Virus record (IMG/VR): IMGVR_UViG_3300009180_000240
Span: 1 to 22,233 of that record
Origin: a virus
DNA: 22,233 nucleotides
Reading direction: 5' to 3' (one strand)
A program made the position numbers and the translations under genes. Below are positions 4,133 through 20,905 of this stretch, in pieces (positions within the stretch are counted from its first letter, which is position 1; each line of letters begins with the position of its first letter). The notes beneath the pieces are model-generated. The model saw only the letters and a program-made list of their open reading frames with translations, was not told where the DNA came from and ran no database searches.

Positions 4133-5395
4133 TCAGGCGTTGCGCAGGTACTTGACCGCCGCCGTGTCGGCCAGCTCGCCGTCCAGACGGATGTAGCCGG
4201 CAATGCCGAAGCCCGGCCAGAAATCCTTGTCCTGAATCGCCCCGATCAGCGGCGCACCCACTTTGCGGACAAAGTATTTGCCGAAATCTCCGAACGCGAT
4301 GATCCGCGCGGTCGTCGCCTGCGTCCCGGCCATGTCCTGGTTGATCGAATACGGCTTGCCCAGCAGGCGGTCCGGTTCGCCGTTCCGCACATCGCCCATT
4401 TGCCACAGATAGTTGCCCTGGCCGTCCTTCAGGCGACGGATCGCCAGCAGGATGTTGTCATGGAACATCCAGCGGCACTTCGGCGATGCCCGGTAAGCCG
4501 GATCGACCGAATGCAGCAGGCCCATGATTTCATCCGATGTCACGGCGGTGGCCGAGGCGGCTGTGACGCCAAGTGTCGCGGCGGTCACAATCCCGTTTGG
4601 CTGGCCGGAACCCGTCCCCGTGGTCAGCCAGGCGTTCGCGCGGCGGCCCAGGCGTTCGCCCAGCAGATCGCCCAGCAATTGTTCCATGTTGAAGATCGAA
4701 TCGTTTGCCAGTTCATAGGAAACCCGCACCCATTCGGTCGAAGCCGAGAAACTGTCCAGCTGGCGCTGTGCAAAGACCGCATCTTCAGAACCGTCGTCGG
4801 TCAGTGTTGCGCCTTCGGTCTGCGCGGCGGCAACCTTGGCGGTGTCGTCGATAAAGGGCATCGGCAGCGGGCCGCCCGACGCCGTTGCCATGGTCGTGCA
4901 GATGTCTTCGTCGTACATCGGACCCCACAGCTTCATCGCGCGGATCAGGACGGCCTGCAGTTCCGTGGGCACGGTGAAGCCACCGGCGCTGTTGGTGCCA
5001 ACCGTCTGCACCCGTTTTTCCACTTGCTGAAAGCCCTGCTGCAGCACGCTGCGGGCCTCGGGGCGCATGTCGCCGGTGGCACCGCCAGCGGCAAGCCATT
5101 CGCGGAACGCTTCGCGGTAGGTCACCGGCTGTCCCTCATCGCTGCCGCGCCCTTCCTGGCCCAGCAGCGGGCGGCGCGGGTCGGGGGCGGTCAGCGCGTC
5201 CTGCACCCGTGCCAGACGGTCTTCGCGGTCGATCACGCCCTGCAGGCGGTCGAAATCTTTCATCATCGCGTCAAATTCGGCGTTGATCTCCCCGGCCCGG
5301 TCTTCGGGCGTCTTGTCGGTGATCTCTTCCAGTTTGGCGCGGGCATTGGTGTGAATGCGCGCCTGCTGCTCCCGCAGCTCAATGATCCGGGTCAT
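4133..5395 (-). CDS. Major capsid protein, HK97 fold with N-terminal scaffold domain
   Basis: A 420-aa protein after a good AGGAGA site. Residues 1 to about 70 are charged and helical (REQQARIHTNARAKLEEI), matching the coiled-coil delta domain that scaffolds assembly and is removed by the prohead protease. Around 134-143 comes the conserved GTNSAGGFTVP entry to the HK97 fold, and later WVRVSYELANDSIFNMEQLL (E-loop/spine region) and GLLHSVDPAYRASPKCRWMF. The C-terminus has FGDFGKYFVRK and IRLDGELADTAAVKYLRNA, typical of this family. The protease gene lies just upstream, the standard pairing. No cross-link lysine can be assigned by eye. Confidence 0.95.
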   Translation of the reverse strand: MTRIIELREQQARIHTNARAKLEEITDKTPEDRAGEINAEFDAMMKDFDRLQGVIDREDRLARVQDALTAPDPRRPLLGQEGRGSDEGQPVTYREAFREWLAAGGATGDMRPEARSVLQQGFQQVEKRVQTVGTNSAGGFTVPTELQAVLIRAMKLWGPMYDEDICTTMATASGGPLPMPFIDDTAKVAAAQTEGATLTDDGSEDAVFAQRQLDSFSASTEWVRVSYELANDSIFNMEQLLGDLLGERLGRRANAWLTTGTGSGQPNGIVTAATLGVTAASATAVTSDEIMGLLHSVDPAYRASPKCRWMFHDNILLAIRRLKDGQGNYLWQMGDVRNGEPDRLLGKPYSINQDMAGTQATTARIIAFGDFGKYFVRKVGAPLIGAIQDKDFWPGFGIAGYIRLDGELADTAAVKYLRNA

Positions 5396-6032: not shown

Positions 6033-7290
6033 CGTCTGTCCCCTGACTGGCCCCGGCAACCGGCTGCGAACCGATTGGCACCGTGGCACCCTGTATCAAC
6101 AGCCTGTCGCCCTGCGGATCGCCGGGACGGTTTTCCATTTGACGCGCTTCATTCGGCGTCAGGATCGCGTTCTGAATTCCCTTCGCATAGCCTTCCATGC
6201 GGGTCTTGAAATCGCCGCGCAGCAGGCCGTCCATATTCATTTCGACAAAGAATTCCCGGTCTGTCCTGCCGAACAGCTTCAGGTTCAACTCCTGTTCGAA
6301 CGCCTCCACCCAGCGCTTCATCGTGTGCTTCACGAAATGCAGATCCTGCTGTTCCGTGTTGCTGAACGTGCCATGCGACAGGTCCTGCAGAAAGGTCGGC
6401 GGCAGCGAATAGATGCGCCCGAACTCTTCAATCAGGAACCGCTTCAACTCGATCAGCTGCGATTTGGCGGCATCTGCACCCAGCGGCTTAATGTCCAGCC
6501 CGCTTGGCAGGATCAGCGCCTGACGCCCTTCCTTTGCCGCCTTCCGCGTGGCCTCTTCCAGGTCTTTTCCCGCCGCCTGCATCGACCGCCCGGACTGGAA
6601 ATTCCCGGTCACGGCAAAGGGCGGCACCCCGCCATTCTGGAAAAACCGGCTGCCAAACCGCGTGGCGGCGATGGCCAGGGCAATCACATCCCGGTTGGTC
6701 GCGATGGGGCCATAATGCGACAGCCCGTCTTCGCGCAGCATGAACGGAATGTCGATAATCTCTGTTGCCGCGTAGGTGATCGTTTCCGATCCGCCCTTCG
6801 GCTTGTATTCGTAGAGCTTCTTTCCCTTTGGCGTGCGCCGGATTTTCACCTTGCCGGGTTCCAGCGGCCAGATGTTGATCACCTCTCGGCTGGCGCTCCG
6901 TTCGATGAAACTCAGGCCCCGGCCACCGGTCATCACCCGCTCGAAAAGATACTTCCGCCACTCGAAAGAGGACTGCTCATCATTCGGCGCGTCATGCAGC
7001 AGCTTTGCCAGCGGGCTGTCCGTCACCCGTTCGCGTCCGCTGTCCGTCCGGCGGAACAGGTTCAGCGGCAGACCGGCCAGCGTGCCGGGAATGAAGTTCA
7101 CGGCGGCAAAAATCGCCGGAACGCTTAAGGCGTTTTCCGTCGTCACGACAATGTCGCTGGCCGTCTGCATCAGGTCGAGGCCCATCAGACGCAGAAAATC
7201 ATTATCCGCCGGTGTGGCCGTGGCCCCGGTGGACGATGCCCGGCTTTCAGCCTGACGGCTGCCGCCAAACTCCATGCCGAAAATCTTCAT
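6022..7290 (-). CDS. Portal protein (HK97 family)
   Basis: A 422-aa protein that starts at 7290 in a TGATG overlap with the terminase stop. A GTG one codon earlier is the alternative. It contains the family's VPAIFAAVNFIPGTLAGLPLN helix-strand, the DEQSSFEWRKYLFERVMTGGRGLSFIE block, and HYGPIATNRDVIALAIAATR followed by FFQNGGVPPFAV. Near the end it has the tunnel-loop region YSLPPTFLQDLSHGTFSNTEQQ. This dodecamer is the DNA entry gate of the head and the docking site for the terminase. Length is standard. Confidence 0.95.
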   Translation of the reverse strand: MKIFGMEFGGSRQAESRASSTGATATPADNDFLRLMGLDLMQTASDIVVTTENALSVPAIFAAVNFIPGTLAGLPLNLFRRTDSGRERVTDSPLAKLLHDAPNDEQSSFEWRKYLFERVMTGGRGLSFIERSASREVINIWPLEPGKVKIRRTPKGKKLYEYKPKGGSETITYAATEIIDIPFMLREDGLSHYGPIATNRDVIALAIAATRFGSRFFQNGGVPPFAVTGNFQSGRSMQAAGKDLEEATRKAAKEGRQALILPSGLDIKPLGADAAKSQLIELKRFLIEEFGRIYSLPPTFLQDLSHGTFSNTEQQDLHFVKHTMKRWVEAFEQELNLKLFGRTDREFFVEMNMDGLLRGDFKTRMEGYAKGIQNAILTPNEARQMENRPGDPQGDRLLIQGATVPIGSQPVAGASQGTDDGA

Positions 7291-9014
7291 CACATGGCCA
7301 TCCGGTACTCAGGATCGGCATCCCACGGCGTCACCACCATGCCGCCCGCCTGCGGATTCCGCGCCATCAGCATGAAGGCGTTGAACCCGGCCATCAGCGC
7401 GTCGATCTTTGCCTTGCCGGCCGTCTCTTTCGTGATCAGCACGGCATTCCCTTTCTGTTCCGCACGGGCATTGCCCAACTTCCAGGCCATCATCGGCTGT
7501 CCGCCGTGGCGGAACGTGCCATCCATCAGCTTGCGTTCCATGCCCCAGATCGCCGATGACAGCCGGTAACCCTGCCCGACCGCCACCATCTGCGCCGGAG
7601 CAATGCCCGCCAGCGTCAACTCATCCACCAGCGCCGCCACCCCGGCCGGGTCCAGGCCGACAGCGGCCTCGGCGGGCAACAGCCCGTGATCGTTCAGCGC
7701 GCCGATCATCTGCGTCAGTTCTTCGAAATCCTGCGTCGGCCAGGCGCAGATCGTCAGATCACCCGCCGCTTCGAAATCGCGCAGCACCGGCACAATCTCT
7801 TTCCGCCGTTCCAGCACGGTCGGGTGCGCCCAGGCATGAAACCACGCCAGCCAGGCCATTGTCTCGCGGCACCGCCCCGTCACGCACAGCCCCAGCAGGT
7901 CATCCGCCCCGCCGCCGTCAATCCCCACCACCGCCACATCGCAGCGCTCGCGGATTGTCTCCAGCGTCACCGGCAGCGGGTCTTTCGCCCCCTGCCAGAA
8001 ATCGGCCCCGATCCAGCGGTTCGAATGCAGCGCCAGCCCGACTTCGACATTCAGATGCTGCGTCGCCCAGGCAATGATTTCGCCGGTGCCATCTTCCTTG
8101 GCCCGCGCATAGCCATCCAGCAGCGCATCCAGCGCAATCGACCGGTCCAGATTGGGCGTCACCATGTGCCACAGATCCGGGTTCAGCCAGGCCTTGTCCT
8201 TGCTGATCTGGATCGCTTCCGGAAACTCGTACAGCACCGGCAGCGTCTTCACCCGCTCGGTGATCTTCCCGTCCCGCACGCCTCGGGCATAGTGCAGCTC
8301 GGTCCTGAACACCCCTTCCGGCGGATGGTCGGACTGCGTCGTGATCATCACCAGCAGCGATTCCGGGAACGGCATCATCCCGCCCCGGATTTGCCGGATC
8401 ACATCCGCCGCATAGGGCACCGACCCCAGAACGTGGATTTCATCGATCAGGGCAAAGATCGGCTTCACCCCGGTCAGAACATCCATGCCAAAGGTGCGCA
8501 CCATCAGGCGGGCATTGGTGGTCCTGTCCCGGATCGTTTTTATGTTTCCACCCTGCACGTGGAACCGCTTCTGCAGAAACCCGTCCGGGTCCGCCTCGAT
8601 CATCCCGCGCGCCTGTTCGAACGCTACTTCGCTGATCTTCTGCGTCGGGCCGATGATCAGCATGTCGGCATTGCGCCGCTTGTTCAGCAGCAGAAAGGTC
8701 AGCGCAATCGCCGCCGCACTGGTGGTCTTCGAATTCTTCTTCGGCACCAGGATAAAGATTTCGCCCACCTGGCGCACTTCCGGCCCTGCCGCACTGCTGG
8801 CCATCGACCCGAAGGCGGCGCGCACGATGTCGCGCATCCATTCGCCCGCCGCCTCGCGCAACTCCGGCTGCCCGATCACATCCGGCAGCCGCAGCTTGTT
8901 GAAGATACCGACCGCCCGTTCCGCCTTCGCCATGTCCAGCGGCAGATCGGCAATCGGCGTCTCGCCCCGCGCCAGCTTCTCTGCCCAGTCGGGACAGGCG
9001 AAGTCGAACGCCAT
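7290..9014 (-). CDS. Terminase large subunit
   Basis: A 574-aa packaging motor. The ATPase domain shows a Walker A of the terminase type, VPKKNSKTT at about 90-98, and a Walker B with catalytic acid, FALIDEIHVL with Asp191-Glu192. The coupling motif VMITTQSD follows at about 222-229. The nuclease domain begins VVGIDGGGADDLLGL with Asp366, and a late AKIDALMAGFNAFMLMARNP helix closes it. This is the Terminase_1 type that partners an HNH endonuclease in cos phages. The gene starts one base inside the stop of the small subunit gene and ends in the portal start, so the packaging genes are translationally coupled. Confidence 0.96.
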   Translation of the reverse strand: MAFDFACPDWAEKLARGETPIADLPLDMAKAERAVGIFNKLRLPDVIGQPELREAAGEWMRDIVRAAFGSMASSAAGPEVRQVGEIFILVPKKNSKTTSAAAIALTFLLLNKRRNADMLIIGPTQKISEVAFEQARGMIEADPDGFLQKRFHVQGGNIKTIRDRTTNARLMVRTFGMDVLTGVKPIFALIDEIHVLGSVPYAADVIRQIRGGMMPFPESLLVMITTQSDHPPEGVFRTELHYARGVRDGKITERVKTLPVLYEFPEAIQISKDKAWLNPDLWHMVTPNLDRSIALDALLDGYARAKEDGTGEIIAWATQHLNVEVGLALHSNRWIGADFWQGAKDPLPVTLETIRERCDVAVVGIDGGGADDLLGLCVTGRCRETMAWLAWFHAWAHPTVLERRKEIVPVLRDFEAAGDLTICAWPTQDFEELTQMIGALNDHGLLPAEAAVGLDPAGVAALVDELTLAGIAPAQMVAVGQGYRLSSAIWGMERKLMDGTFRHGGQPMMAWKLGNARAEQKGNAVLITKETAGKAKIDALMAGFNAFMLMARNPQAGGMVVTPWDADPEYRMAM

Positions 9015-19185: not shown

Positions 19186-19246
19186 AAAATGGACGTTTCT
19201 TCCAAAAGATCAAGATGGAAAATTCTTCAATGGGCATTTTTTCCAG
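19186..19246. promoter_or_regulatory. Operator cluster OL: three ATGGA-N7-TCCAT sites
   Basis: Three 17-bp dyads lie between the divergent Cro-like and repressor genes. Cores are ATGGA-CGTTTCT-TCCAA (19189-19205), ATGGA-AAATTCT-TCAAT (19215-19231) and ATGGG-CATTTTT-TCCAG (19230-19246). The same motif occurs twice more at 20598-20647. Graded quality from outer to inner copies is typical of repressor operators. The cluster must hold both the leftward early promoter and the repressor promoter, but neither has a clear -35/-10. Confidence 0.75.
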
Positions 19247-19264
19247 AATCGGGATCATGACCGC

Positions 19265-19561
19265 ATGAATGCACGCAAAACACTGCCGAAGATCGACATG
19301 GCCGGGGTCGCCCAGCGGCTCGAGGCGCTGCGTGAGGCGCACGGAATCCAGAAGGGCGAATTCGCAGACAGCTTCGGGCTGCACCCGTCCAGCTACTCCA
19401 AAGTGATTCAAAGCGCCAAACCCCTGAAGTCGGAATGGGCCTACATCATTTCTCAGAGGTGGGGCGCGTCGATGGATTACATCTACAAGGGCGACCTGTC
19501 GCGTATCGAAGATGCCCTGCGCGCCAAGATCATGACGAACCTGAACAAGGCCGAGCCGTAA
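19265..19561 (+). CDS. Phage repressor, short XRE type
   Basis: A 98-aa protein: MNARKTLPKIDMAGVAQRLE, ALREAHGIQKGEFADSFGLH, PSSYSKVIQSAKPL, then a helical tail. Residues 13-65 form a typical XRE HTH, with recognition helix around HPSSYSKVIQ. There is no C-terminal S24/LexA-type peptidase domain, so RecA-stimulated self-cleavage is not expected. It lies divergent to the Cro-like gene across three operators and is the first gene of a short operon ending at a terminator, which fits a CI-like role. An alternative role as a second Cro is possible. Confidence 0.75.
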   Translation: MNARKTLPKIDMAGVAQRLEALREAHGIQKGEFADSFGLHPSSYSKVIQSAKPLKSEWAYIISQRWGASMDYIYKGDLSRIEDALRAKIMTNLNKAEP

Positions 19562-19773
19562 AGCACATCAATGGACACCCCGGTTTTGTCAGAAACCCAG
19601 AAAAGCAATCTGTCGCCTTGGTCATGGTTCATGGTTGCCTACATCTTTACCTCATGCGCGAACAAAAGCGGAACGCGGCGGGCTGGTCAAGTGCACGTTC
19701 CGATTGATGCCAGGTTATCCACACTATTTTAAGGTTGTTGAACCAGCGCGGCAACACAAGGCGGGGAACGGAT
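19562..19773. other. Spacer after the repressor gene with DnaA box and possible promoter
   Basis: A perfect TTATCCACA DnaA box lies at 19715-19723. TTGATG (19704-19709) and TTTTAA (19727-19732), 17 bp apart, or TATTTT at 15 bp, could be a promoter for the HIRAN gene. This would give it expression independent of the repressor. A 53-codon plus-strand frame (19571-19732, MDTPVLSETQKSNLSPW...) has a hydrophobic stretch but no ribosome site, so I do not call it a gene. Confidence 0.4.
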
Positions 19774-20220
19774 TTGGAAGACGACGACACACCCGTTTCC
19801 GTTCGGCTGAAGCGCGGCGAACGGGTTTCCCTTGTTGCGGTGCGCTTCACCGGCAGCAACAGCTACGCGACGGCGGTGGTCGGCGAAAGCCATTACCAGC
19901 GGCACCTGCGAAAACTGGTGGGGCCGCGCAGCGCCGAAGGGGTGCGGGCCAAGTTCATAGCCTTTCTTGTTCCGGAACCGGACAACCAGTTTGACGAAAA
20001 TGCGGTCATGGTGTTGATCGATGGCGATCAGGTCGGCTACCTGATGGCTGAAGACGCCATTGATTTCTTGTCCGGCATGGAAGAAATCGAACGTCCAGGC
20101 CATGTTGCCGCCGTAGATGCTGTCGTGTCCGGCGGGTTCCAGAAAAAAAACGGCTCATGGGCGCACTATGGGGTCTGGCTGGACATCACCCTGCCATTCG
20201 ATCTGGACGAAGTGCAGTAG
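19774..20220 (+). CDS. Stand-alone HIRAN-domain protein
   Basis: From a TTG at 19774 with GGGGA six bases upstream, the gene encodes 148 aa; a TTG at 19735 would add 13 residues. The HIRAN landmarks are present: VVGESHYQRHL at about 35-45, FLVPEPDNQFDENAVMVLI at about 64-82 and QVGYLMAEDAIDF at about 86-98. HIRAN domains bind 3' DNA ends or stalled-fork DNA and are usually fused to helicases or nucleases, but this one has no partner domain. It sits between the phage repressor and a terminator, where lysogen-expressed exclusion or defence genes are common. The repressor-adjacent position suggests expression in the lysogen. Confidence 0.82.
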   Translation: MEDDDTPVSVRLKRGERVSLVAVRFTGSNSYATAVVGESHYQRHLRKLVGPRSAEGVRAKFIAFLVPEPDNQFDENAVMVLIDGDQVGYLMAEDAIDFLSGMEEIERPGHVAAVDAVVSGGFQKKNGSWAHYGVWLDITLPFDLDEVQ

Positions 20221-20314
20221 CTTTCCCCTGGTTACACCAGGCTTGACCGCCGCCCGGATCCGCGCTTTCCTGCGCGTCTGGCCAGCAGGCCTGCTGTAAC
20301 CTATGGAGTCTGCG

Positions 20315-20476
20315 ATGGAACTCTTGATTTTCTGGATCGCCCTGGGCGTTGTCACCGCACTGGCGGCACAGGCGCGCGGGCGCAGCTTTATTGCCTGGCT
20401 GCTGATCGGCAGCGTCACCGGCATCTTCGGCCTGATCGCCGTGCTGGTCATGGAACGGGTCAAGCCCGAAGCCTGA
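20315..20476 (+). CDS. Small two-helix membrane protein, 53 aa
   Basis: The sequence is MELLIFWIALGVVTALAAQA, RGRSFIAWLLIGSVTGIFGL, IAVLVMERVKPEA. Two hydrophobic segments (about 2-18 and 25-46) are joined by a basic Gly-Arg-Ser turn. The ATG at 20315 is chosen because GGAG lies six bases upstream; an ATG at 20303 has none. The form resembles small membrane proteins of the RGRS-type hairpin class seen in many proteobacteria. Being expressed with the repressor and ahead of a terminator, it could be a superinfection-exclusion or lysogenic conversion protein. Function is not known. Confidence 0.7.
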   Translation: MELLIFWIALGVVTALAAQARGRSFIAWLLIGSVTGIFGLIAVLVMERVKPEA

Positions 20477-20512
20477 TCGACCCGCCGGCGTCACACCACC
20501 GCTTCTTTCCCG

Positions 20513-20535
20513 GCCCGCCACCTAGCGGGCTTTTT
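20513..20535 (+). terminator. Rho-independent terminator of the repressor operon
   Basis: GCCCGC (20513-20518), a 6-base loop CACCTA and GCGGGC (20525-20530) form a perfect stem followed by TTTTT. It closes the repressor/HIRAN/membrane-protein transcript and keeps it out of the rightward early promoter 90 bp downstream. Confidence 0.85.
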
Positions 20536-20597
20536 CATGCGCCGCACGGTTCGGCAGCGGCGGTGATTCTCTTTGACCTGCAAACGCCCACCCAAAT

Positions 20598-20647
20598 AAA
20601 ATGGACATTCTTTCCATTTTCTATTTGACAATGGAAGAACTGTCCAT
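20598..20647. promoter_or_regulatory. Operator cluster OR: two ATGGA-N7-TCCAT sites
   Basis: The first site is AAA-ATGGA-CATTCTT-TCCAT-TTT (20598-20620), with a perfect 8-bp inverted repeat. The second is ATGGA-AGAACTG-TCCAT (20631-20647). Centres are 30 bp apart, about three helical turns, which permits cooperative binding on one face. The second fills the space between the -35 and -10 of the rightward promoter, so repressor binding there would shut the promoter off. Confidence 0.85.
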
Positions 20648-20653
20648 TTTATT
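20625..20653 (+). promoter_or_regulatory. Rightward early promoter PR
   Basis: TTGACA (20625-20630) is a perfect -35. After exactly 17 bp comes TTTATT (20648-20653), a four-of-six -10. The transcript would reach the 68-aa gene after a leader of about 40 bases, including an AAGGGGAG ribosome site at 20684-20691. Confidence 0.8.
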
Positions 20654-20698: not shown

Positions 20699-20905
20699 AT
20701 GCTCATGACGATAGGCGACATGGAACGCGCCGCAGGCATTACCGACCGCGCGGCATTCTGGGCGCAGTTTCAGCACATACGCGGTTCCGTGATGGTCAGC
20801 GGTCGCCTGCGCGATGCCCGCTTTGTTGCTGTCGTCGCAGAGTTGGAGCGGCTGATCGCAACGCAGGTCAAGCCCAAGGCGACCAGGCGCAGGGCCGCGA
20901 AATGA
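20699..20905 (+). CDS. First gene of the rightward early operon, hypothetical 68 aa
   Basis: It starts MLMTIGDMERAAGITDRAAF after a strong AAGGGGAG ribosome site. A second ATG two codons on is possible. It has one helix-rich half (FWAQFQHIRGSVMVSGRLRD) and a basic tail (KPKATRRRAAK), which may bind DNA or RNA. The stop overlaps the next start (ATGA). No family recognised. As the first gene of a repressor-controlled operon it should be among the earliest expressed. Confidence 0.6.
   Translation: MLMTIGDMERAAGITDRAAFWAQFQHIRGSVMVSGRLRDARFVAVVAELERLIATQVKPKATRRRAAK

Follow-up and report, generated by a model that had tools for sequence, protein, structure and literature searches.

The stretch of DNA analysed here, referred to as the window, is an entire IMG/VR viral contig (IMGVR_UViG_3300009180_000240; 22,233 bp). 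Its immunity region comprises the gene of a small Cro-like helix-turn-helix (HTH) protein, the oppositely oriented gene of a single-domain XRE repressor, three palindromic sites (A, B and C) between them, and a further pair of such sites in front of the rightward operon. In addition, a small open reading frame (ORF) runs antisense across the repressor end and is preceded by a LexA box (Table 1). Altogether, this arrangement is probably the switch of a temperate Rhodobacterales phage, combining repressor operators with an SOS-induced antisense antirepressor. An original prediction, made from the letters of the window, had described the sites and the two clusters, but missed the antisense gene, the LexA box and the wide family of related loci.

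Table 1. Features of the immunity region, with positions in the window
Feature	Position	Strand	Basis and remarks
Cro-like HTH protein, 81 aa	18933..19178	-	ORF; heads the leftward (replication/late) operon
Operator A (predicted)	19189..19205	.	1 mismatch; in the cro promoter between -35 and -10; same place in relatives
-35-like TTGATC, leftward cro promoter	19208..19213	-	Sequence; 37/42 loci have TTGA[CTA] directly upstream of site A on the cro strand
Operator B (predicted)	19215..19231	.	1 mismatch; right half TCAAT, degenerate as in many relatives; 26 bp from A, conserved
Operator C (predicted)	19230..19246	.	2 mismatches; 41 bp from A; spacing kept in L003 and others
Single-domain XRE repressor, 98 aa	19265..19561	+	Model with pLDDT (predicted local distance difference test) 89; recognition helix spanning about residues 41-48, with Ser42 at its beginning
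Antisense ORF, 49 aa, candidate SOS antirepressor	19483..19632	-	Overlaps repressor 3' end; frame open in 34/34 core loci
LexA box GTTC-N7-GTTC (GTTCCGCTTTTGTTC)	19660..19674	-	Exact; 27 bp before the antisense ATG
-10-like TTTTGT, putative SOS promoter	19662..19667	-	Inferred from sequence; inside the LexA box
-35-like TTGACC, putative SOS promoter	19685..19690	-	Inferred from sequence; separated from TTTTGT by 17 bp; shared with L023
Upstream operator of the right pair (predicted)	20601..20617	.	Exact
-35 TTGACA, rightward promoter	20625..20630	+	Sequence; TTGAC in 39/42 loci
Second operator of the right pair (predicted)	20631..20647	.	Exact; fills the 17-bp promoter spacer
-10-like TTTATT, rightward promoter	20648..20653	+	Sequence
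First small gene of the rightward operon	20699..20905	+	ORF; no clear family in family searches

Although five copies of ATGGA-N7-TCCAT had been claimed, only those at 20601 and 20631 are exact (0 mismatches each), while the copies at 19189 (ATGGACGTTTCTTCCAA, 1 mismatch), 19215 (ATGGAAAATTCTTCAAT, 1) and 19230 (ATGGGCATTTTTTCCAG, 2) are degenerate. The sites as such are real and enriched. Four sites with at most one mismatch were found in the window, all inside the same 1.46 kb, compared to a mean of 0.64 in shuffled sequences, of which 0 of 100 reached four. The site at 19230 is not significant alone and shares two bases with the site at 19215. All five sites are convincing because they are conserved in the closest relative, L003, whose repressor is 92% identical, with unchanged spacings of 26, 15 and 30. 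This is so although L003 lacks the HIRAN gene between the clusters and carries other genes behind the right pair. In a palindrome search to which no motif was supplied, the ATGGA half-site ranked top in most homologous loci. For the spacers, in which a common flavour had been noted, the 56 sites with exact ATGGA or ATCGA half-sites gave a consensus of about C-G-T-T-T-C-T. Judged from the sequence, the five sites are very probably the operators of the 98-aa XRE lysogeny repressor.

When viral contigs were searched for two sites close to each other, loci were found whose repressors are homologous to that of the window but distant (34-48% identity). The repressor profile search gave 19 loci in viral contigs and 13 in genomes; where the organism was named, it nearly always belonged to Rhodobacterales. 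The window repressor alone gave no match as a query against the genome contigs, so that the profile was needed. A repressor homologue was present in 20 of 397 genomes of one GTDB family (E-value 1e-14), and among 385 Alphaproteobacteria the centre genome was the only match at 1e-18. The resulting family of about 43 loci consists almost entirely of Rhodobacterales prophages or viral contigs; 42 loci were used for the layout, and since the loci are related, the counts given here and below are not independent. Among 50,697 phage records no close relative of the repressor was found, and none in the named phages there, which is in line with the earlier statement that no named phage with this operator was known. 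Compared to phages by megablast, the window showed matches in terminase and primase pieces only. The open-licence literature, the only kind covered, contained no description of the ATGGA-N7-TCCAT operator or of the antisense arrangement.

The scan of relatives that had been proposed as a check revealed the same architecture throughout the family, namely an A-26-B-15-C cluster before a single-domain XRE repressor, followed by a pair of sites 30-32 bp apart, the second of which occupies the spacer behind the TTGACA of a rightward promoter. With spacings of 20-44 bp allowed, the best downstream pair was located at 30, 31 or 32 bp in 42 of 42 loci, and TTGAC preceded the second site of this pair by at most 8 nt in 39 of them. 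The half-sites differ by lineage (ATGGA, ATCGA, CTGGA, TGGGA, ATGAC and CTACG). According to the palindrome counts, again with no motif given, ATGGA occurs in most loci, ATCGA in a clade of nine and a CTGGA type in two, while the distant members comprise ATGAC, CTACG or TGGGA-type half-sites. As pair spacing and TTGAC are kept across loci with differing half-sites, the layout predates the operator sequence. Further copies in host genomes, which in large numbers would have spoken against the original prediction, are few and scattered.

The repressor had been described as being of unusual type, which could not be upheld. It comprises one plain XRE domain, and neither a peptidase match nor a C-terminal LexA-like self-cleaving domain was found in family searches or in the model. 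The model superimposes on P22 c2 in complex with DNA (3jxb) with a Z of 9.5 and 1.5 A over 65 residues, and the fold also resembles the 434 repressor, P2 C (2xcj; Z 8.3 over 74 residues) and SinR (1b0n). In Pfam, the window repressor reached 20.3 bits against XRE/HTH_3 (cut-off 23), and its homologue in L031 46.9 bits against HTH_19 (cut-off 30.2).

Mapped onto the repressor tree, the operator class requires 4 changes, the minimum for 5 classes, also when the recognition-helix columns are omitted, compared to 9 changes on the Cro-like tree. Position 42 of the repressor is the sole one of 89 columns that separates 25 ATGGA (Ser) from 8 ATCGA (Thr) sequences, and it is the only fixed difference of the ATCGA repressors from their sister group. 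This residue aligns with Gln29 of the 434 repressor, which contacts bases. The half-site accordingly appears to track the phylogeny of the repressor and not that of the Cro-like protein. The existence of several repressor and operator classes within one architecture offers a ready test of specificity change, with residue 42 as the first suspect.

An alternative would be that the Cro-like protein reads the half-site as much as the repressor and that the operator class reflects both. This fits classical lambda logic, and Cro position 36 is Glu in 8 of 8 ATCGA loci compared to 2 of 25 ATGGA loci, a difference for which the independent pairs are too few. However, the Cro relatives of ATCGA and ATGGA loci are mixed on the Cro tree, as reflected by the 9 changes, and no column of the folded domain fully separates the classes. 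Joint reading is thus considered rather doubtful, and the earlier proposal that the Cro-like protein acts on the same half-site receives no support from covariation.

The two operator clusters are located at the two early promoters. At the rightward promoter TTGACA, the operator 20631-20647 and TTTATT abut exactly, the operator being the whole spacer. The leftward operon, headed by the Cro-like gene, leads to the terminase in the window and likewise in L080, while in two relatives an integrase gene closes the rightward operon (a tyrosine integrase in L080 and a large serine recombinase in L081). Together, these two observations correspond to the arrangement of lambda. The lambda-like two-promoter switch that had been proposed is supported by these promoter positions, by the conserved TTGAC and by the integrases; lambda-like in its working, the switch is nevertheless not a lambdoid CI system.

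The antisense frame, on the other strand directly past the repressor stop, runs back into the repressor gene, with the same end in most loci (in the window MNHDQGDRLLFWVSDKTGVSIDVLYGSALFRFVMILARRASSIRDRSPL, 19632 to 19483). All 34 core loci keep it open over the 75 nt that lie beyond the repressor, compared to 5-20 for the other frames. Its pairwise BLOSUM value is 35.6, while the other frames reach at most 24.7. Between 13 non-overlapping pairs, 82, 39 and 128 differences were counted at codon positions 1, 2 and 3, a pattern which indicates that the frame is protein-coding. The alignment showed a conserved motif GVSIDxAY, and in L023 a Shine-Dalgarno-like GGAGG precedes the ATG. No match was obtained in Pfam, PHROG or NCBIfam for this previously unannotated gene.

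GTTC-N7-GTTC is the LexA motif of Alphaproteobacteria (PMC3323433), and it was found upstream of recA in 4 of 4 host genomes. The exact box lies within 220 bp past the repressor stop in 15 of 43 loci, including the window and L044 of the lysogenic laboratory strain Pseudooceanicola endophyticus CBS1P-1, whereas spacers of 2-6 and 8-14 gave 0 or 1 loci each. It therefore seems rather likely that the antisense protein is an SOS-induced antirepressor, acting on a repressor which has no cleavage domain of its own. The antisense profile aligns with the C-terminal segment of the repressor (ERWGVSMDYLYRG compared to ARxTGVSIDxAYRS; E-value 1.2e-4, probability 55%), while the comparison with the Cro-like profile gave 0.014. 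A tentative explanation, though less likely than not, would be that the antisense protein mimics this segment. That such mimicry is joined to the antisense position, so that a single SOS transcript across the repressor end would both silence the synthesis of repressor and poison the existing repressor, we regard as improbable rather than probable.

It could also be that operators and repressor work as proposed, while the LexA box drives only an antisense RNA or transcriptional interference and the frame encodes no antirepressor protein. A transcript from this position would run across the 3' end of the repressor gene, and the peptide is without a match in the family databases. Against this, the frame is open without exception, substitutions outside the repressor are poor at position 2 and rich at position 3, the protein motif is conserved, and GGAGG precedes the ATG in L023. 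An effect of the RNA alone is consequently unlikely, and a protein with antirepressor function is preferred.

The Cro-like protein was predicted to adopt an HTH fold (pLDDT 87). It resembles the Xfaso 1 Cro protein (3bd1, Z 7.2); the similarity to P22 Cro is weak (1rzs, profile E-value 0.02; fold Z 6.3). HigA antitoxins head the fold list with a Z of 8. Matches to carph-isopro (E-value 3e-5) and YdaS_toxin (PF15943; E-value 0.07, 13.4 bits compared to a cut-off of 30) lie below and far below the cut-off, respectively. Together with a match of the repressor profile to PezA, the HigA and YdaS similarities could suggest a RacR/YdaS- or HigBA-like toxin-antitoxin module instead of an immunity switch. 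However, a Z of about 8 is generic for HTH proteins, the YdaS match is insufficient, and two operator clusters at phage early promoters, with an integrase ending one operon and replication and terminase genes in the other, make such a module very improbable. Chance palindromes or coding repeats, for which the lost enrichment with three mismatches allowed might speak (63 sites in the window compared to 63.75), are refuted by the conservation, position and spacing of the sites and deserve practically no weight.

For the immunity switch preferred here, the following course can be proposed. In the lysogen, repressor dimers would shut the leftward cro/replication promoter via A, B and C and the rightward early/integration promoter via the 30-bp pair. 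The distance from A to C is about four helical turns and that within the right pair about three, so that dimers bound to the same face of the helix could cooperate. LexA would occupy GTTC-N7-GTTC over the -10 of the antisense promoter. Upon DNA damage, the SOS response would lift LexA and the antisense promoter would fire. The protein of about 49 aa would then inactivate the repressor, possibly as a mimic of its C-terminal segment. In addition, its transcript, passing antisense through the repressor gene, might help to remove the repressor.

Several observations weigh against this explanation. The loci with ATCGA and Thr42 form one clade and therefore represent one event, which is not proof. 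Six half-site calls were set by hand (L024, L030, L039, L064, L069 and L073), since the automatic top match was tied or not the operator, and L075 has no operator site. In 28 of 43 loci there is no exact LexA box after the repressor, which could mean divergent boxes or other inducers. The antisense gene was found only at repressor loci (8 genomes) and never apart from a repressor, and thus has no independent functional context. Finally, the mimicry signal is short (34 columns) and of the modest probability given above.

As in the immunity regions of lambda, P22 and 434, the repressor gene is flanked by two operator clusters, one at each of two divergent early promoters, a Cro-like gene is first on one side, an integrase ends the other operon (in relatives), and the DNA-binding fold is of the P22 c2/434 type. 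In contrast to these phages, there are 3+2 instead of 3+3 sites, an operator serves as promoter spacer, a cleavable domain is missing, and an antisense small gene with a LexA box is present. The P2 C immunity repressor (2xcj) is likewise small and single-domain. However, its recognition sites are different, and P2 is not known to be inducible by the SOS response.

With regard to induction, the closest logic is that of Gifsy GfoR/GfoA, where a non-cleaved repressor is combined with a small protein gene under LexA control (PMC3121763); the corresponding antirepressor role is a prediction here. The Gifsy antirepressor genes lie outside the immunity region (PMC3121763), whereas the present gene lies inside, convergent with and overlapping the repressor, and has no family match. 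The same logic is given for the LexA-controlled antirepressors 186 Tum and N15 AntC, as cited in PMC10432266. SinR (1b0n, PMC3163267) shares the DNA-binding fold, and SinI is an antagonist resembling part of its target; however, SinR/SinI is a host biofilm regulator and not a phage switch, and mimicry in our case is based on the profile alignment only. Repressors and binding sites also diverge together into immunity types in Cluster A mycobacteriophages (PMC6550527), although with many genome-wide stoperators there compared to two fixed clusters here. For temperate roseobacter phages, XRE repressors without LexA/peptidase domain have been described, with the switch undeciphered (PMC7305329). 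For one prophage family, a testable answer is provided by the operators, the promoters and a small gene that is conserved, unannotated and preceded by a LexA box.

Not all matches to the pair pattern were included in the family. L007 and L012 were dropped since their sites are in coding sequence, and L009, L011 and L013 since the family's proteins are not near the sites. L011, a viral contig of 74.7 kb, contains four near-identical ATGGACGTTTTGTCCAT sites 21-22 bp apart (1847-1928). L008 and L017 share the half-site and the 31-bp spacing, but were not counted as their CI-type repressors are of another lineage. Both are phage contigs of low guanine-cytosine content, L008 with a transposase-like protein; the ATGGA-N7-TCCAT pairs lie at 498-545 (L008) and 5246-5293 (L017), and the recognition helix of the repressors reads S-Q-F-S-K. 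In contig G010 (L006 443-881, L018 2252-2690), the Cro-like gene and both clusters are present without repressor or antisense gene between them. Neither a repressor homologue nor a tyrosine integrase was found in its 25 kb record, and G010 might represent a virulent derivative that arose naturally.

Between repressor and right promoter, the window contains a HIRAN-like gene (19735-20220; PF08797 with an E-value of 4e-4, below the cut-off), the one absent in L003. The rightward transcripts of L029, L037, L042, L045, L061, L069 and L073, among others, would carry at their start a hairpin CCATC-N4-6-GATGGAG beside the Shine-Dalgarno sequence. In L061 it reads CCAATC/GATTGG instead, a compensatory change, and the hairpin is not uniform among the loci. 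L047 comprises tandem CGCCATCACCGCGCT-like units behind the right promoter, at about +790 to +1290 after the repressor start. Finally, the terminase DNA of the window (7290-9014) is about 77% identical to that of phages recorded on Microcystis (Mae-JY02 and Mel-JY03), whose host assignments may deserve a check.
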